Source: an uncultured Alphaproteobacteria bacterium
GTDB taxonomy: Bacteria; Pseudomonadota; Alphaproteobacteria; MPNO01; UBA830
Reading direction: 5' to 3'
Assembly: GCA_913047365.1 (NCBI GenBank)
Contig: CAJWUK010000008.1
Location: 1 to 32,799 of the forward strand
DNA: 32,799 nt
A program made the translations under genes and the position numbers. The notes beneath the pieces were generated by a model, which made no database searches, was not told the origin of the DNA, and worked only from the letters and a program-made list of their open reading frames with translations. Positions 2,488 to 14,622 of the stretch are shown piece after piece; within the stretch, counting starts at the first letter, position 1, and the number at the start of each line of letters is the position of its first letter.

Positions 2488-4563
2488 ATGGCGGGTGCGC
2501 GCCTTGCTGCCGATATCGGCGGTACATTCACCGACATCGCAGTCGAATTCGATGACAATTTGCATACCTGTAAAGTGCCGACGACGCCTGACGCGCCGGA
2601 GCAGGGGGTCCTCGACGGTGTCGTTCGTACATTGGACGAAACAGGCCTCGGGCCGGCTGATTTTTCTCTGATCGTTCACGGCACGACATTGGCAACCAAT
2701 GCCCTGATCGAACGAAAGGGTGCGAAGACTGCGATGCTTGTTACCGAGGGATTTCGCGATGCCGTCGAAATGGCCTACGAGAACCGGTTCGAGCAATACG
2801 ATATCTACATGGACAAGCCGCCGCCATTGGTACCCCGAGAATTGCGGTTCGGTGTCGTGGAACGTGTCGATTCGCGCGGGAACGTACTTATCCCGCTCCC
2901 GGACGACGCTCTCGCTTCAATCATTCCCATATTGAGATCTGAGAGGATCGACGCCGTCGCTATCGGGTTGATGCATTCGTATGTTGCGCCTGACCACGAG
3001 CGTCGGATTGCTGCAATTCTCAAAAGCGAACTACCTGGCGTGATGGTATCGCTTTCCAGCGAGGTATCGCCTGAAATTCGGGAATACGAACGCTGGTCGA
3101 CAACGGTGGCGAATGCCTATGTACAGCCGCTGATGTCCAGTTATCTTGGCAGGCTGTCCGATAGCCTCTCCGATCTTGGCTTCGGTTGTTCGCTTTGCCT
3201 GATGACGTCGGGCGGTGGGCTGTGCTCACTTGAAACAGCCCGGCAATTCCCAATCCGTCTGGTGGAATCGGGACCGGCAGGTGGGGCGATCCTGGCAGCA
3301 CGCCTGGCACAGGAATGCGGGCTGGATAAAGTCGTCTCCTTCGATATGGGGGGCACCACTGCCAAAATTTGCCTCATCGACAACGGCGAACCACTACATT
3401 CTCGAAGGTTTGAGGTGGCCCGGCAGTATCGTTTCCTGAAAGGCAGCGGTTTGCCGCTTCGCATACCAGTAATCGAGATGGTTGAAATTGGAGCCGGCGG
3501 CGGTTCCATTGCGCGGGTCGATTCTCTCTCGAGGATTCAGGTTGGGCCAGACAGTGCCGGTGCCGTTCCTGGTCCTGCTTGCTATTCCAAAGGTGGAGCA
3601 GCCGCGACCGTAACAGATGCAAATTTGACCCTCGGGAGGATAGATGGAGAGGCGTTTGCGGGGGGTACGATGAAGTTGGATGCCAACGCTGCCGCGAAGA
3701 CACTGGAGGTCGATGTCGGGGTGCCGCTATCACTTTCTGATGAAGGTGCGGCCTTCGGTATCAGTGAAGTGGTCGAGGAAAATATGGCGAATGCAGCCCG
3801 TGTTCACGCAGTTGAAAGTGGCGCAGAAGTGCGCGGTCGGTCAATGATTGCCTTTGGCGGCGGCGCTCCGCTGCATGCCGCAAGCCTGGCCCGGAAACTT
3901 GAAATCGATGAGGTTGTGGTGCCGGTTGCCGCGGGGGTGGGGTCCGCAGTCGGTTTTCTGCAGGCACCGGCGGCTTACGAAGTCGTCCGTAGCAGATATG
4001 AAATTCTGGATAACAGCTTTGACGTCAGCGCCCTGAACGCGCTGTTCAGTGAAATGCGTGACGAGGCTAGCGGTATCGTACGCGCTGCTGCGTCTGATAA
4101 CGCGTTGGTCGAAAACCGAACCGCCGATATGCGCTATCGCGGGCAGGGGCATGAAATTACCATTGTTTTGCCGGACGGGCCCTATAATTACCAGATCGGT
4201 ATAGACATGATCGACCGGTTTGAAACGTCATACGAAGCGACTTTCTCCCGCCGAATTCCAAATCTGGATGTCGAAGTGTTGAACTGGTCGCTTCGTCTTT
4301 CCGCCGCTGTGCCAGATTCGGAATTGTGTCCGCCGGACCCACCTGCAACCGAACCGGAACCAAACGGAACCAGGATGTTATTCGATCCGGAAACTGCCGC
4401 GCCTATGGAGGTTTCTGTCTATGATCGCGATAGTCTGAAGCCTGGCAATCTGATCGTGGGGCCTGCAATTATTACTGAAGACGAGACAACAACAATTGTC
4501 TTGTCCGGTTACGAGGCCACTGTGAACGCACGGAGCCATATCGTTCTAAGAAGAGCCCCATAA
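2488..4563 (+). CDS. Hydantoinase/oxoprolinase family protein, subunit A (HyuA-like)
   Basis: 691 aa; ADIGGTFTDIAVEF, VHGTTLATNALIERKGAKTAMLVTEGFRD, SFDMGGTTAKICLI, EIGAGGGSIARVD: typical HyuA/ASKHA-fold motifs. Confidence 0.93.
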   Translation: MAGARLAADIGGTFTDIAVEFDDNLHTCKVPTTPDAPEQGVLDGVVRTLDETGLGPADFSLIVHGTTLATNALIERKGAKTAMLVTEGFRDAVEMAYENRFEQYDIYMDKPPPLVPRELRFGVVERVDSRGNVLIPLPDDALASIIPILRSERIDAVAIGLMHSYVAPDHERRIAAILKSELPGVMVSLSSEVSPEIREYERWSTTVANAYVQPLMSSYLGRLSDSLSDLGFGCSLCLMTSGGGLCSLETARQFPIRLVESGPAGGAILAARLAQECGLDKVVSFDMGGTTAKICLIDNGEPLHSRRFEVARQYRFLKGSGLPLRIPVIEMVEIGAGGGSIARVDSLSRIQVGPDSAGAVPGPACYSKGGAAATVTDANLTLGRIDGEAFAGGTMKLDANAAAKTLEVDVGVPLSLSDEGAAFGISEVVEENMANAARVHAVESGAEVRGRSMIAFGGGAPLHAASLARKLEIDEVVVPVAAGVGSAVGFLQAPAAYEVVRSRYEILDNSFDVSALNALFSEMRDEASGIVRAAASDNALVENRTADMRYRGQGHEITIVLPDGPYNYQIGIDMIDRFETSYEATFSRRIPNLDVEVLNWSLRLSAAVPDSELCPPDPPATEPEPNGTRMLFDPETAAPMEVSVYDRDSLKPGNLIVGPAIITEDETTTIVLSGYEATVNARSHIVLRRAP

Positions 4564-6293
4564 TGGCGAGTCCGAAAGATCCTTTTTCCCCCATTCGGCT
4601 CCAAATCATGTGGGATCGGCTGATCGCCGTGGTGGAAGAACAGGCCCAGGCACTGATCCGCACGGGGTTCTCCACATCTACGCGCGAAGCCGGCGATTTA
4701 TCCGCGGGTGTCTTCGATGTATCTGGGTATATGCTGGCGCAGGCGGTTACCGGCACGCCGGGACATGTGAATTCTATGGCCCGGTCGGTAAAGCACTTTC
4801 TCGACCGCTTCCCGGTATCGGAGATGGCCGATGGGGATGTGTTTCTGACCAACGACCCCTGGAAGGGAACGGGTCATCTGCATGATTTCACGTTTTTGAC
4901 CCCCTGCTTTAAAGATCAAGACCTGACCGCGCTGTTTGCCAGTACATGTCATGTCGTTGACATCGGTGGCCGTGGAATGACGTCAGATGGACGCACCATC
5001 TATGAAGAAGGCCTCTACATCCCGCTTATGCGGTTCGCCCATGCCGGGAAAATTGACCAGACACTGATCGACATTGTGACGGCGAATGTCCGTGAACCGG
5101 TGCAGGTGGTCGGTGATCTGCATTCTCTGGCAACGTGCAACGATGTTGCGTGTCGGCGGCTTCGGGAAATGCTGGACGAATTCGCTCTTACAGATCTTAA
5201 CCGGCTGGGTAGCCATATTTTGGAAAAGTCCAAATCGGCATCGCTGGAAGCAATTGCAAAGGTGCCGTCTGGCACCTACCGGAACAGCATGCGGATAGAT
5301 GGGCTGGAGGAACCGGTTGATCTGGTAGCCGAGATGACGGTTGGCGAAGACGGCATTCATGTCGATTTTTCGGGTTCTTCCGGCATCTCCTCCTACGGGA
5401 TAAATGTTCCGTTCTGTTACACGGAGGCTTACGCATCGTTCGGCGTGAAATGCATTGTCGCACCAGAGGTTCCAAACAATTCGGGCTCGCTTTCCACGAT
5501 CCGGATTACGGCACCTGAAGGCACCATTTTGAACGCAGAACATCCGGCGCCGGTTTCGGTACGGCACGTCACTGGCCAGATGCTGCCGGATGTCGTTTTT
5601 GGCTGTTTGGCGCAGGCCGTCGATGACGCGGTCCCGGCGGAGGGCACCTCCTGCCTCTGGAATCTCTATGCCTATGGCGGTCCCGGCCGGGTAGAGGCTG
5701 ATCCGAAGCAGCTTGCCGATGCGGATACTTTCACGGTGCTCAGTTTTCATTCCGGCGGTGCGGGTGCACGGCCTGGTAAGGACGGATTATCGGCTACGGC
5801 GTTTCCCAGTGGTGTCCGGAATGTACCGGTCGAGGTAACGGAGGCCATTTCGCCGCTAATTGTCTGGCGCAAAGAATATCGGTTGGATTCCGGCGGAGCA
5901 GGTGAATACCGGGGTGGGTTGGGGCAAACCATGGAACTCGGTCTGTTACAGGATGCACCCTTTGCATTCAGCGCGTTGTTCGACCGGATTGATTATCCGC
6001 CAAGGGGACGCGATGGCGGAGATAACGGTGGCGAGGGGGCGATTTATCTGGCGTCTGGATCTCGATTGAACGGTAAAGGCACCCAGACCATTCCGCGGGG
6101 CGAGAGAGTGGTGGTTGATATGCCTGGAGGTGGCGGTCTGGGTGAGGCAAGAATGCGCGATCCAAGAAGGGTGGTGGATGACGTTCGAGGAGGTCTGGTG
6201 TCTGCGGATGTCGCCAGAAGCACTTATCGTGTTGCAATTGATGACAACGGCGACGTAGATGAGAACGTGACGCAAAAATTGCGCGCCAATTAG
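4563..6293 (+). CDS. Hydantoinase B/oxoprolinase family protein (HyuB-like)
   Basis: 576 aa; FLTNDPWKGTGHLHDFTFLTP, CHVVDIGGRG, EGLYIPLMRF, GGGGLGEARMRDP. Start overlaps the hyuA stop (TAATG), implying translational coupling. Confidence 0.93.
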   Translation: MASPKDPFSPIRLQIMWDRLIAVVEEQAQALIRTGFSTSTREAGDLSAGVFDVSGYMLAQAVTGTPGHVNSMARSVKHFLDRFPVSEMADGDVFLTNDPWKGTGHLHDFTFLTPCFKDQDLTALFASTCHVVDIGGRGMTSDGRTIYEEGLYIPLMRFAHAGKIDQTLIDIVTANVREPVQVVGDLHSLATCNDVACRRLREMLDEFALTDLNRLGSHILEKSKSASLEAIAKVPSGTYRNSMRIDGLEEPVDLVAEMTVGEDGIHVDFSGSSGISSYGINVPFCYTEAYASFGVKCIVAPEVPNNSGSLSTIRITAPEGTILNAEHPAPVSVRHVTGQMLPDVVFGCLAQAVDDAVPAEGTSCLWNLYAYGGPGRVEADPKQLADADTFTVLSFHSGGAGARPGKDGLSATAFPSGVRNVPVEVTEAISPLIVWRKEYRLDSGGAGEYRGGLGQTMELGLLQDAPFAFSALFDRIDYPPRGRDGGDNGGEGAIYLASGSRLNGKGTQTIPRGERVVVDMPGGGGLGEARMRDPRRVVDDVRGGLVSADVARSTYRVAIDDNGDVDENVTQKLRAN

Positions 6294-9592: not shown

Positions 9593-9619
9593 TAATCCGG
9601 TTCCTGATCTCCGACGTAA
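9593..9619 (+). promoter_or_regulatory. Candidate ECF11/RpoE-ChrR-type promoter
   Basis: TAATCC-GGTTCCTGATCTCCGACG(18 nt)-TAA, about 35 nt before the DUF6134-like start. Matches spacing and 3' context of the site at 14596..14622. Confidence 0.45.
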
Positions 9620-9653
9620 CAGAAGAGAAGGTCGTAAACGGAACCCTTGGCGA

Positions 9654-10355
9654 ATGCTTTCTCGTCCCTCGATCCACATATCGGTTCTGATATTTGGGTT
9701 GGTGCTTACCACCAACTTTGTCGGTGCATCCCAAAACCCTATTGGTATTTATGGGGACGAGATCGTGTTCGACGTAATTCGCAATGGAAAAACCGTGGGC
9801 GAGCACAAAGTAACGTTCGTACCAACTGAAGAAGGGCTTTCGGTCGATTCGCGCCTTCGTATTGACATCAGATTTCTTGGATTGACGGTCTATAAATATC
9901 GATATGTATCCCGTTCGATCTGGGGGGGAGGACGGCTGTTATATTTGAATGCGGCCGTCGATGATGATGGGAAAAGGCACAATGTAGCTGTGGAGCATTT
10001 CAAAGGCAGATTGCATATTACTGGCCCGGCCGGGCTCAAGTTTGCTTCTCCGAACACGCTCCCCACTAATCACTGGAATGTTTCGGTTCTCCGATCAGAC
10101 CATGTCATCAATACAATTACCGGTAAGGTGAACCGGGTCAGGATTGAGCGTGTAGGGGAGGCCACCGTGACCACGAATGCCGGTCCCAGATATGCAACCC
10201 ACTACCGTTATACCGGGGATCTCGACGTAGATGTCTGGTACGACCAAATGGGTCGCTGGGTAAAATTGCGTTTCGGTGTAAAAGATGGCTCGATCGTAGA
10301 ATACATGTGCAAACGTTGCGGAAAGCCTAAGAGGCAGCCAAATGGCCCGAAGTAA
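9654..10355 (+). CDS. DUF6134-like secreted/periplasmic protein
   Basis: 233 aa; signal-like N-terminus, then IYGDEIVFDVIRNGKTVGEHKVTF...YRYVSRSIWGGGRLLYLNA. Coupled to the downstream SDR by a 14-nt overlap. Confidence 0.7.
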   Translation: MLSRPSIHISVLIFGLVLTTNFVGASQNPIGIYGDEIVFDVIRNGKTVGEHKVTFVPTEEGLSVDSRLRIDIRFLGLTVYKYRYVSRSIWGGGRLLYLNAAVDDDGKRHNVAVEHFKGRLHITGPAGLKFASPNTLPTNHWNVSVLRSDHVINTITGKVNRVRIERVGEATVTTNAGPRYATHYRYTGDLDVDVWYDQMGRWVKLRFGVKDGSIVEYMCKRCGKPKRQPNGPK

Positions 10356-11124
10356 ACTTGAGGCGGGCTCCGTTGTCTGGATTACGGGGGCAGGAAAAGG
10401 CATTGGCCGTGCCTTGTCTGTTGAACTCGCCAAGCGCGGAATGAAGATCGCGGCAAGCGCGCGAACTCGATCAGATCTTCAATCGTTGGTTTCGCAATCC
10501 ACTGAGCTAGCCGGATCGATATCCTCCTGGCCTGTCGATGTTACGGAGCGGGAAGAAATGTCGAAAACGGCTTCTGCTATCGAAGCCGAGTTAGGTTCAA
10601 TCGATTTGCTAGTCTGCAACGCGGGCACACACAGCCCTGTCACCGCTGAAAACTTCGATGCGGAGGCTTTCAACCAACTCCTCGACATTAACATCATGGG
10701 CGTGGTTAACGGGATAGCCCCTGTTTTACCTAGGATGACGGCCAGAAGTTCGGGAAGAATTGCTGTCGTTTCCTCCGTTGCGGGTTACCGAGGTTTGCCT
10801 TCGGCCCCCTCATACGGAGCGACCAAGGCGGCGCTCATAAACATGTGTGAGGCGTTGAAGCCGGAACTGGAACACTCTGGTGTCAAACTACATCTTGTCT
10901 GTCCAGGTTTCGTCAGGACCCCCTTAACTGATAGGAACAGCTTCCACATGCCGTTTTTGATGGAACCGGAAGATGCGGCGCGTCGTATCGCTGATGGTAT
11001 CCAGCGCAACAAATTCGAAATTACGTTTCCCTGGCGTTTTGTTTTCTGGCTCAAGTTGGGCCGCATATTGCCCTATTGGGCGTACTTCGCTCTGACCCGT
11101 CGGCTGGCGGCGGCAGGAAAGTAG
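10342..11124 (+). CDS. Short-chain dehydrogenase/reductase
   Basis: 260 aa; WITGAGKGIGRALSVELAKRG Rossmann motif, NAGTHSPV, YGATKAALIN catalytic YxxxK. Confidence 0.93.
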   Translation: MARSKLEAGSVVWITGAGKGIGRALSVELAKRGMKIAASARTRSDLQSLVSQSTELAGSISSWPVDVTEREEMSKTASAIEAELGSIDLLVCNAGTHSPVTAENFDAEAFNQLLDINIMGVVNGIAPVLPRMTARSSGRIAVVSSVAGYRGLPSAPSYGATKAALINMCEALKPELEHSGVKLHLVCPGFVRTPLTDRNSFHMPFLMEPEDAARRIADGIQRNKFEITFPWRFVFWLKLGRILPYWAYFALTRRLAAAGK

Positions 11125-11140
11125 AGAAACGCGAAGGTCT

Positions 11141-12388
11141 TCAGTTTTTCTGCGTCGATAGGATGTATTGGGAAACATCAATTGTACCGCGCCGAAATCC
11201 TGCTTCACTGTAGGCTAGGTAGTATCGCCAAAGCCGCCGAAAACGCTCGTCCATGCCGAGCTTCTGAATTTCAGGCCAGGCTAACTCGAATCGCTCGCGC
11301 CACCGCGCCAAAGTGTTCGCATACGAATTTCCAAAAGAATATATGTTGTCGATTTGAAGCTTATGTGCGGTCGCTTGGGTTTCGATCGATCTCGGCGACG
11401 GTAACATGCCGCCAGGGAAAATATATGCCTGTATGAAATCGGCCGCTTTTCGATACCGGTCAAAGCGTTCATTGGCGATCGTGATCGCCTGCAGTCCGAT
11501 ACGACCCTCTCGCGCCAGTCTTTCCTTCAAGGTTCCAAAATACGCGGGCCAGAATTTTTCACCTACCGCTTCTATCATTTCGATAGACACGATCCTGTCG
11601 AATTTCCCGGCGATGTCACGGTAATCTTGGAATTTTATCGTTACCTTATCCTGCAGGCCGGCTCGCCGCATTCGATTTCGCGCGTATTTTTCCTGTTCAC
11701 GCGAAACAGTCACAGCTGTTACATCGCACCCGTAAGCAGAAGCAGCGATCTCGGAAAAACCGCCCCAACCACAGCCGATCTCAAGAAGCTTCATACCGGG
11801 TTTAAGTCCTAGTTGGTCGGCAAGACGACGGTATTTTCTTTGCTGAGCGTCTTCCAGTTTTTCAGCAGGGTGACGGAACAGAGCTGATGAATATGTCATA
11901 CTGTCATCTAGCCATCGCCGGTAAAATTCGTTTCCTAGATCGTAGTGTGAGGCGATGTTTTTCCGGCTGCCCAACCGGGAATTGGAGCGAAGAAGATGGC
12001 GGGTCCGGTTCAAGGCTCGAACCGGCCATATTCCTTCCAGGGTTTGTTGAATCTTTGCCTCGTTTCCTATTCCGGCTGAAATTGTTGCGACCAAATCGTC
12101 TGCATCCCATTCACCTTCAATATACGCTTTCACCATTCCCAGATGGCCACCCAAAAATATACGTCTGGCAACGCGCAAAGTATGCAATCGGACTTTCGCG
12201 TCCGGGAGATTGCCTTCTTTGGGTGGAATGGTAGTGCCGTTAGGCATCGTCAGCGCAATATTGTCCGGCGTAAGACGGAGAAGGGTCGTATTAAGAGAAA
12301 AAACGACAATTTTAGGCAGCGATCCTTCGGGAGAGATGGTTGGCGGCACGGGATTTGCGATTGAACTGTTTTGAGTGTCGTTGCTCAT
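11141..12388 (-). CDS. Cyclopropane-fatty-acyl-phospholipid synthase family SAM methyltransferase
   Basis: SHYDLGNEFYRRWLDDSMTYSSALF, LLEIGCGWGGFSEIAA, ERIGLQAITI-like CFA signatures. The ORF track start (12430) is probably too long; ATG at 12388 (MSNDTQNSS) follows the DUF1365 stop. Confidence 0.93.
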   Translation of the reverse strand: MSNDTQNSSIANPVPPTISPEGSLPKIVVFSLNTTLLRLTPDNIALTMPNGTTIPPKEGNLPDAKVRLHTLRVARRIFLGGHLGMVKAYIEGEWDADDLVATISAGIGNEAKIQQTLEGIWPVRALNRTRHLLRSNSRLGSRKNIASHYDLGNEFYRRWLDDSMTYSSALFRHPAEKLEDAQQRKYRRLADQLGLKPGMKLLEIGCGWGGFSEIAASAYGCDVTAVTVSREQEKYARNRMRRAGLQDKVTIKFQDYRDIAGKFDRIVSIEMIEAVGEKFWPAYFGTLKERLAREGRIGLQAITIANERFDRYRKAADFIQAYIFPGGMLPSPRSIETQATAHKLQIDNIYSFGNSYANTLARWRERFELAWPEIQKLGMDERFRRLWRYYLAYSEAGFRRGTIDVSQYILSTQKN

Positions 12389-12395
12389 TTCCAAT

Positions 12396-13175
12396 TTATT
12401 CGCCAGGCGATGGCACAACCGTGACCACATTCCTTGGGCTTTCTGGTTTTTTGTAAACCGCTGCGCCCTTTCGCCAAAGCCTCAACGCCTCCCAATGAAT
12501 TCCGACAATTATTTTCAACGTCATTAGAGGATAACGGAAAAAGGCTTGCAACAGGGTTCGATCGGTAAGTGGACGCCGGGTGCCCGTAAATGCCGCCTGC
12601 AAAAGGACTCCCTGGTCATCGCTTTCAGCGATAGTGAGAATGATTTCTTGGCTTGGAGGGCTGATACGGAAATTGTAACGGGCATCCATTCCGATAAAGG
12701 GAGACACATGGAGCTGTTTATCGCAAGATTGCCGGATAGGCCCAGTCCCAGTTCCGTTCGCCCGGATCAGGTAGGCATGTCGCTCGCCAAAGGTATTGTG
12801 AACTTCGTAAAGGATGGCTACCAGCTCTTCATTGGGCCGGTAGCAGAAGTAGACGCTGAGGGGATTGAATACGTACCCAAGGACACGGGGATAGCACAAA
12901 AGCCGGATTGGACCGTTTTGGGTATCTATGCCGGCATCGGATAGTTCTTTTTTGACCCATTGCCTTACCGTGTAGCCCGCTGTCCCATGATCGTTTTCGT
13001 GAAAAGAGAACAGGTTGAAACGGTTCAAAGAGAAAAGACGGCAACTGGCTGCGGTGTCTTCGAGTTTGTCGAGATCGATTAGAAGCGAGAATACACTATA
13101 TCGGAGACGGTGGCGTCGCGGTCGGCTTCTCGTATGAACGACCTCACCGAAATAAAGGGCGCCTTTCATGGTCAC
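12396..13175 (-). CDS. DUF1365 domain-containing protein
   Basis: 259 aa; ALYFGEVVHTRSRPRRHRLRYSVFSLLIDLDKL, VFNPLSVYFCYR, VHNTFGERHAYLI. Start overlaps the stop of the FAD protein gene. Confidence 0.92.
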   Translation of the reverse strand: MTMKGALYFGEVVHTRSRPRRHRLRYSVFSLLIDLDKLEDTAASCRLFSLNRFNLFSFHENDHGTAGYTVRQWVKKELSDAGIDTQNGPIRLLCYPRVLGYVFNPLSVYFCYRPNEELVAILYEVHNTFGERHAYLIRANGTGTGPIRQSCDKQLHVSPFIGMDARYNFRISPPSQEIILTIAESDDQGVLLQAAFTGTRRPLTDRTLLQAFFRYPLMTLKIIVGIHWEALRLWRKGAAVYKKPESPRNVVTVVPSPGE

Positions 13176-14533
13176 GCAGCTCTCTCCAGCGACTGTTCTC
13201 CCGGCTGTCTCAGATTTATGCGTCCGGATTCATTTGCGACGTTCCAGGGACGCCGAACACCGCCAATGTCCTCCGCAACAGCCAACCCGGCCTGCAGCGC
13301 GTCTTCGTGGAAACCGTATCCAAAATAGCTGCCGCAAAACCAGGTATTTCGGACGCCCTGAATCTGCGAGATTTTTTTTTGGGCACTCAGAGCGCTTAAA
13401 TTAAACATTGGATGATCGTATTCAAACTCTGCTTCGATTGATCCCGGGTGGGGTTCCCGTGACGGGTTTAAGGTGACGAAATAGTTCTTGTCGGTGTCCA
13501 ACCGTTGGAGCTTGTTCATCCAATATGTGACACAAACCGAATTATCTTCGACGTCGCTGTTCCTAACATAGTTCCAGCTTGACCACGCTCTTCGCCGTTT
13601 CGGCATCAGGGTGGAATCCGTGTGCAGCACGGCGCGGTTTTTGGAGTATTTAAATTGTTGAAGGAGAGACCGTTCTGCATGGTCAGTGTCTGAAAGTATA
13701 GAGAACGCCTGATCCGCGTGTGTTGCCAACACCACGGCATCGAAATTCTCTTCCCGACCGAATTGGTCTGTTATAACAGCCCCAACGGGTGTGCGCCTGA
13801 CACTTGTGATGCAGCATCCGGATTGAACTGTAGAAGACATATTCGACCTTAGTCGCTCGACGTAGGAACGGCTGCCTCCGACGACTGTTCGCCAGTCGGG
13901 CCGTTTTCGGAATTTCAATAGGGAATGATTCACATAAAAGCGGAGAAATGCCTCCAGCGGATAATTACGCATTTCATCCGAGGGTGAAGACCAGATTGCG
14001 GCCCCCATAGGCAAAAGATGGTCTCTGACAAACGGTTCCGAATAATTGTTTAGGTCCAGGTATTCTCCTAGAGAAAGATGTGGAATCTCGGATTGTCCCA
14101 ACAGGTCCGGAGCCTCCGAATAAAACCGTCTTATGTCCGAAACCATATTCCAAAATCGAGGTGAAATAGCGTTCAGTGGCCTTGCAAACAAGCCTCCAAA
14201 ATTTCCGGCATATTCGAATTTTCCCCTGTTTATGGAGACAGAAAATGACATATGGCTTGGCGACGTCGTGACATTCAAATAATCGAATAATGCGGTCAGA
14301 TTTGGGTAGTTCGGCTCATTGTAAACGATGAAGCCAGTATCTATCGGAATACGGGCGCCTTCCGAGGTGACGTCCACTGTATTGCTGTGACCGCCCAAAC
14401 GGTTTTCTTTTTCGTAAATTGTAACTTCGTGTTTATTGCTTAAGAGCCAGGCGGCGGATAGGCCGGCAATACCTGTGCCAACGACCGCTATTTTTCGAGG
14501 AATGATTTCTGAGTTCGTATTGCTCGCGGCCAT
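13172..14533 (-). CDS. FAD/NAD(P)-binding amine oxidase-like protein
   Basis: 453 aa; KIAVVGTGIAGLSAAWLLSNKHEVTIYEKENRLGGHSNTVDV dinucleotide-binding motif; C-terminal NTWFCGSYFGYGFHEDALQAGLAVAE. Confidence 0.92.
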   Translation of the reverse strand: MAASNTNSEIIPRKIAVVGTGIAGLSAAWLLSNKHEVTIYEKENRLGGHSNTVDVTSEGARIPIDTGFIVYNEPNYPNLTALFDYLNVTTSPSHMSFSVSINRGKFEYAGNFGGLFARPLNAISPRFWNMVSDIRRFYSEAPDLLGQSEIPHLSLGEYLDLNNYSEPFVRDHLLPMGAAIWSSPSDEMRNYPLEAFLRFYVNHSLLKFRKRPDWRTVVGGSRSYVERLRSNMSSTVQSGCCITSVRRTPVGAVITDQFGREENFDAVVLATHADQAFSILSDTDHAERSLLQQFKYSKNRAVLHTDSTLMPKRRRAWSSWNYVRNSDVEDNSVCVTYWMNKLQRLDTDKNYFVTLNPSREPHPGSIEAEFEYDHPMFNLSALSAQKKISQIQGVRNTWFCGSYFGYGFHEDALQAGLAVAEDIGGVRRPWNVANESGRINLRQPGEQSLERAA

Positions 14534-14595
14534 TCTGGCGGATTCCCGATTTGCAAACTATCGCCGGAACACCCGCGACAATATCAATTACGGCA

Positions 14596-14622
14596 TTACG
14601 TCTGTTTTTTCGATAAGGATCA
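14596..14622 (-). promoter_or_regulatory. Candidate ECF11/RpoE-ChrR-type promoter
   Basis: Minus strand: TGATCC-TTATCGAAAAAACAGACG(18 nt)-TAA, about 63 nt upstream of the FAD protein ATG. The TGATCC -35 element is the hallmark of RpoE-ChrR promoters. Confidence 0.55.

Follow-up and report, generated by a model that had tools for sequence, protein, structure and literature searches.

The window analysed here is a 32,799-bp stretch of alphaproteobacterial DNA (contig C8 of a source assembly of 3.03 Mb in 342 contigs, 84% complete). Positions 9593-14622 hold two operons facing each other, DUF6134-SDR on the forward strand and an operon of ufaD-like, DUF1365, and CMAS genes on the reverse strand. 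Each operon is preceded by a sequence resembling the promoters of the extracytoplasmic function (ECF) sigma factor group ECF11 (RpoE-ChrR). The features are as follows, the gene identities being based on family and synteny.

9593..9619, forward strand: predicted ECF11 (RpoE-ChrR) type promoter of DUF6134-SDR, TAATCC-N16-CGTA-A
9654..10355, forward strand: DUF6134 protein of 233 aa with an N-terminal signal-like segment and a C-terminal CxxCG (PF19630, 174 bits)
10342..11124, forward strand: short-chain dehydrogenase/reductase (SDR) (PF00106, 176 bits)
11141..12430, reverse strand: most likely a UfaM-type S-adenosylmethionine (SAM)-dependent fatty-acyl methyltransferase of the CMAS family (PF02353, 302 bits)
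12396..13175, reverse strand: UfaO homologue (DUF1365; PF07103, 293 bits)
13172..14533, reverse strand: UfaD homologue, FAD/NAD-binding and amine-oxidase-like (PF01593/PF13450)
14622..14596, reverse strand: predicted ECF11 (RpoE-ChrR) type promoter of ufaD-ufaO-ufaM, TGATCC-N16-CGTA-A

The two predicted promoter sites and their conservation

Both 27-bp sequences that the initial annotation had proposed as promoters were found, at 9593-9619 on the forward strand and at 14622-14596 on the reverse strand. They are intergenic. The former lies 34 bp upstream of the DUF6134 start codon (ATG, 9654), and the latter lies 62 bp upstream of the ufaD-like start codon (ATG, 14533) in a gap of ca. 113 bp after a metallo-beta-lactamase gene. 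Chromatin immunoprecipitation sequencing (ChIP-seq) of the RpoE-ChrR homologue of Pseudomonas syringae gave the consensus TGATCC-n16-CGTA (PMC5507510). The site at 14596-14622 is an exact TGATCC-N16-CGTA, and that at 9593-9619 has one change in the -35 element (TAATCC). At the sequence level, both sites match this consensus, one of them with TAATCC. As to the identical spacing and shared GACGTAA noted initially, the N16 spacing and CGTA were constrained, whereas the GA and the last A varied.

The initial annotation had also called the pair hard to explain by chance. This did not hold for the raw pattern T[GA]ATCC-N18-TAA, for which the expectation was 0.36-0.47 matches per window; of 100 shuffles, 7 contained two or more matches (Poisson, 0.05). 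For T[GA]ATCC-N16-CGTAA, a pattern partly picked after the sites had been seen, 0.0055 matches were expected per window and the probability of at least two was 1.5e-5 under a dinucleotide model. Because that pattern was partly read off the sites, a matrix built from 18 rpoE-chrR promoters, all from other genomes, provides the weightier and independent test. Among ca. 65,500 window positions, the matrix ranked 9593-9619 first (15.2 bits) and 14622-14596 second (11.7 bits); the third position scored 11.5 bits.

To follow the motif in relatives, we collected loci with homologues of the DUF1365 protein or of ChrR and scanned upstream regions for T[GA]ATC[CT] and CGTA, comparing spacers of 10 to 22. 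T[GA]ATC[CT]-N16-CGTA stood before the sigma gene partnering chrR (rpoE) in 43 of 60 regions; the corresponding counts were 30 of 75 non-SAR11 relatives for ufaD and 11 of 26 relatives for DUF6134. Every other spacer length in that range gave 0-4 matches in those regions. In Thalassospira, Kordiimonas, and Rhodospirillales, rpoE-chrR is divergent from ufaD-ufaO-CMAS, DUF6134-SDR is convergent, and the motif precedes most of the three units. In many genomes, rpoE-chrR adjoins the ufa operon.

The motif was absent at any spacing from the ufaD upstream regions of 27 Pelagibacteraceae (SAR11) loci (0/27). ChrR was not found in eight SAR11 genomes searched whole, and the same search detected it in Thalassospira, Nisaea, and a Rhizobium. 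The SAR11 furan-fatty-acid genes thus appear to be uncoupled from singlet-oxygen control. SAR11 loci (L168, L171, L172, L175, L185, L194, L204, L218, and others) carry ufaD-ufaO-CMAS, mostly with an SDR gene downstream on the opposite strand.

The proposed regulator, further candidate targets, and competing explanations

Contig C8 yielded neither a sigma nor an anti-sigma gene, and the initial expectation that the regulator acts in trans agrees with ChrR being encoded on a different contig of the same genome (C208). This ChrR is full-length (TIGR02451, 194.8 bits, above the cut-off), has zf-HC2 (zinc finger) and Cupin_7 (ChrR cupin) domains, and shows HxxxCxxC and HxHxxxE motifs. The suggested search for an ECF11 sigma with a ChrR-type anti-sigma therefore succeeded for ChrR and yielded no ECF sigma gene; a search of the source genome with the sigma of a same-family genome as the query also gave no match, a result that carries no information in view of the contig end at chrR. 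Two PF04542 matches in the source genome were sigma-32-like by length and sequence, not ECF, and there was no promoter-like site in the retrieved flanks of these two genes. Contig C208 begins two bases ahead of the chrR start codon, whose ATG is base 3. Relatives carry an ECF-type sigma gene whose end precedes the ChrR-query match by a few bases (mostly 6-9), and Pfam regions 2 and 4 were confirmed in one relative's chrR-adjacent sigma. From these positions, we infer that the source genome has an ECF11 sigma gene and that the contig break removed it from the assembly.

Several same-family genomes have chrR and the DUF1365 operon on separate contigs or ca. 200 kb apart, indicating that regulation in trans is usual in that family; they are kept together in genome G001. 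Full-length ChrR and UfaO co-occurred among 41 genomes, UfaO being present in 19 of 21 ChrR-positive and 5 of 20 ChrR-negative genomes (Fisher p = 2.5e-5, ignoring relatedness).

We scanned the source genome for T[GA]ATCC-N15..19-CGTAA and obtained 14 matches. The N16 spacing accounted for 7 of these and the other spacings for 2, 0, 3, and 2 (binomial p = 0.012), so that the genome-wide check against a control showed N16 to be enriched. Other spacer lengths served as the control. A reversed-pattern control was set aside because reversed TGATCC contains CTAG, which is rare in many bacteria, and this control is probably biased low. Further N16 sites were located as follows.

Before a photolyase gene, 19 bp to the ATG
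Before a glutathione peroxidase gene (cut by the contig end), 60 bp
Before uvrA, with TAATCC, 10 bp
L061:2461-2487 (G000:C30), TGATCC-N16-CGTAA, 106 bp upstream of a gene for a UbiX-like flavoprotein

An N16 match on C51 lay inside a coding frame and was taken as chance, as were several N15 and N17-N19 matches within coding frames or without a sensible downstream gene. Photolyase belongs to the core regulon (PMC5507510). For Shewanella, a study of rpoE and rpoE2-chrR reports a periplasmic glutathione peroxidase that depends on an ECF sigma (PMC4336711). With a relaxed -10 element, TGATCC-N16-CGTA was found 27-29 bp before the gene for a small secreted EF-hand-like protein of ca. 104 aa (L143:673-698; G000:C229). 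The same promoter arrangement was present in G005 and G006 (L125 and L130) and a near-identical site in G004, making this protein a candidate ECF11 regulon member. A gene for a UbiD-family decarboxylase lies directly after chrR (L059:889-2553; G000:C208). Since UbiX makes the UbiD cofactor, UbiD and the UbiX-like flavoprotein may be a pair within the regulon. Elsewhere in the window, 2488-6293 holds a hydantoinase/caprolactamase-like gene pair (691 and 576 aa) adjoining luciferase-like monooxygenases.

Taken together, it is highly probable that both sites are promoters read by a trans-acting ECF11 (RpoE-ChrR) sigma, driving ufaD-ufaO-ufaM and DUF6134-SDR. The initial proposal of an RpoE-ChrR promoter pair over lipid and stress operons was borne out by the presence of ChrR in the genome, the N16 enrichment, and the occurrence of the same promoters before the same operons in many relatives. 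Several observations weigh against it. The -35 element of the first site is one base from the classic TGATCC, and ca. 60% of the relatives' ufaD and DUF6134 genes are without the strict motif in the scanned stretch. Matrix scores equal to those of the two sites are expected by chance ca. 25 and ca. 122 times per 3-Mb genome, and the 84%-complete source assembly yielded no ECF sigma gene. Because equal-scoring chance sites number in the tens per genome, position and conservation carry the case.

It is unlikely that only the ufa promoter is real and that the TAATCC site before DUF6134-SDR is decayed or unrelated. Such decay would fit the altered -35 element and the strict motif at just 11 of the relatives' 26 DUF6134 genes, but it is this TAATCC site that has the top matrix score in the window. 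Moreover, TAATC[CT]-N16-CGTA precedes ufaD and/or a second CMAS gene in all five same-family genomes G002-G006, and rpoE itself is preceded by TAATCC-N16-CGTAA in G004. The P. syringae katG promoter, TaATCt-n16-CGTA, was induced ca. 41-fold by its ECF11 homologue (PMC5507510). Judged from these sequences, TAATCC is a genuine -35 variant in the family of the source organism. In G002-G006 (L234-L238), ufaD is located apart from ufaO and beside the second CMAS gene.

It is very improbable that a different ECF sigma of similar preference reads the promoters while ChrR controls something else. The identity of the sigma is deduced, as no ECF sigma was found in the assembly, and the motif is found at some phrB genes of Pseudomonas fluorescens, where that sigma has no homologue (PMC5507510). 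On the other hand, the motif precedes rpoE-chrR in relatives, as expected for autoregulation, and rpoE-chrR often stands beside the ufa operon. We give equally little credence to random sites with operons read by the housekeeping sigma: the shuffles and the genome-wide matrix expectation allow it, but the other-genome matrix places the sites first and second in the window, N16 is kept before orthologous genes, nearly absent at other spacings, and missing from ChrR-less SAR11, and coherent further targets (photolyase and glutathione peroxidase) exist in the source genome.

Predicted functions of the ufa and DUF6134-SDR operons

In Rhodobacter sphaeroides, UfaM (RSP2144), long annotated as cfa, methylates cis-vaccenoyl chains (PMC7380195, PMC5507510). 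UfaD (RSP1091), which corresponds to a flavin-containing amine oxidase (PMC7380195, PMC5507510), desaturates 11Me-12t-18:1, and UfaO, which carries DUF1365, makes the furan ring with O2 (PMC7380195). UfaM, UfaD, and UfaO together yield 9M5-furan fatty acid, and the Rhodopseudomonas palustris genes RPA2571-2570-2569 are ufaD, ufaO, and ufaM (PMC7380195). The window trio comprises homologues of ufaD, ufaO (DUF1365), and ufaM together in the order of RPA2571-2570-2569.

In the FAD oxidase-DUF1365-CFA operon of the initial description, the CFA label is best corrected to UfaM. The bicarbonate ligands of Escherichia coli Cfa are Glu239, His266, and Tyr317 (PMC11387697). At these positions, the window CMAS protein has Glu, Gln, and Tyr, so that Glu and Tyr are kept and His266 is Gln; it also has Ala at Cfa His240 and Ser at Cfa Cys139. 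Among the retrieved loci, Gln occupied Cfa position 266 in all 97 of 97 CMAS proteins encoded next to ufaO. Most CMAS proteins away from ufaO keep His266, and the second CMAS of the source genome (C30) keeps all three bicarbonate ligands, including His266. Four Gln266 sequences seemed unlinked; one (L224) was the window gene retrieved again, and the others came from three ufa-bearing loci. Since it carries Gln at 266, as do all the ufaO-adjacent proteins, the window CMAS is most likely UfaM, the furan-fatty-acid methyltransferase, and probably not a canonical cyclopropane synthase. The module would accordingly serve the synthesis of furan rather than cyclopropane fatty acids. An operon of FAD oxidoreductase, DUF1365, and CMAS genes with DUF2878 and DUF3833 was also seen on the Klebsiella pneumoniae plasmid p2020S07-151-550k (L243), where it lies behind a MerR-family regulator instead of an ECF-ChrR pair.

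In R. sphaeroides, the core sigmaE-ChrR regulon includes the SDR RSP_1087, and RSP1088 is matched by a lipoprotein in P. syringae (PMC5507510). Many relatives have the SDR gene together with ufa genes, and from this linkage and its class, the window SDR is predicted to be the counterpart of RSP1087. For DUF6134, no mention was found in the literature searched, and neither DUF6134 nor DUF1365 had a solved-structure relative by sequence. The C-terminal CxxCG is present in most DUF6134 members. A place similar to that of DUF6134 is taken by a DUF3833 protein in other genomes. The AlphaFold model of DUF6134 is all-beta and confident (predicted local distance difference test, pLDDT, 85.5). Foldseek gave weak matches of this model to VioE, LprG, and LolA/LolB, with TM-scores of only ca. 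0.3-0.5, and a periplasmic lipid-binding function of DUF6134 is a lead only. We regard the secreted DUF6134 protein as an apparently undescribed member of the core sigmaE-ChrR regulon. A further idea, which we put forward tentatively and think somewhat doubtful, is that DUF6134 is a new secreted LolA/LprG-like lipid binder (CxxCG) of the singlet-oxygen response, made with the SDR under an ECF11 promoter and carrying, protecting, or clearing furan or oxidised acyl lipids, and that a cyclopropane synthase becomes a methyl-branching, double-bond-shifting enzyme when the bicarbonate ligand His266 is lost, as in the ufa-linked methylase.

In the regulatory scheme that we propose, the ECF11 sigma would be held by the zinc/cupin anti-sigma ChrR (C208) until singlet oxygen or organic hydroperoxides inactivate ChrR and free it. 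The freed sigma is predicted to bind and read both window promoters and its own. In the membrane phospholipids, vaccenoyl chains would then be methylated, desaturated, and oxygenated by the products of ufaD-ufaO-ufaM, and the resulting methylated furan fatty acid would quench singlet oxygen. In R. sphaeroides, furan fatty acid is also needed for ChrR turnover (PMC6852236). DUF6134-SDR would supply a secreted, possibly lipid-binding protein and a dehydrogenase.

Comparison with known systems

The two operons and their predicted promoters most probably represent the known core sigmaE-ChrR regulon under regulation in trans. What they add is DUF6134 as a conserved target, TAATCC as a -35 variant of the family, and Gln266 as a mark of ufa methylases. 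The furan-fatty-acid genes of an alphaproteobacterium with a fragmented genome are hereby tied to a specific regulator that is distant from them and half missing from the assembly. The singlet-oxygen response gains a secreted protein, DUF6134, as a further part of its conserved neighbourhood and regulation. Gln in place of His266 offers a simple mark by which ufa methylases can be told from true cyclopropane synthases, two groups that share one name in annotation.

The core sigmaE-ChrR regulon of R. sphaeroides (rpoE-chrR, RSP1087-1091, and RSP2143-2144; gene list from PMC5507510) and PSPTO_1043/1042 of P. syringae have the same TGATCC-n16-CGTA motif and spacing. The gene set common to this regulon and the source genome comprises the SDR, DUF1365 (UfaO), flavin oxidase (UfaD), CFA-family methylase (UfaM), photolyase, and ChrR. 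In contrast to those systems, the targets in the source genome are unlinked from chrR, as in several same-family members, ufaM lies inside the ufaD-ufaO operon, and one of the window promoters has TAATCC. The window SDR operon has DUF6134 where other genomes have DUF3833/NTF2-like proteins.

RPA2571-2570-2569 of Rhodopseudomonas palustris share the three families and their order with the window; the 9M5-furan product was shown there (PMC7380195) and is predicted for the window genes. Plasmid AZO_p4 of Azospirillum lipoferum (ChrR, sigma, FAD oxidoreductase, DUF1365, CMAS, DUF3833, NTF2, and SDR) resembles the window in having a ufa operon and a convergent SDR operon. It differs in that sigma-chrR is adjacent and divergent and that DUF3833 and NTF2 replace DUF6134. 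E. coli Cfa shares the CMAS family and the methyltransferase domain with the window protein, in which its His266, Cys139, and His240 are replaced by Gln, Ser, and Ala, respectively.

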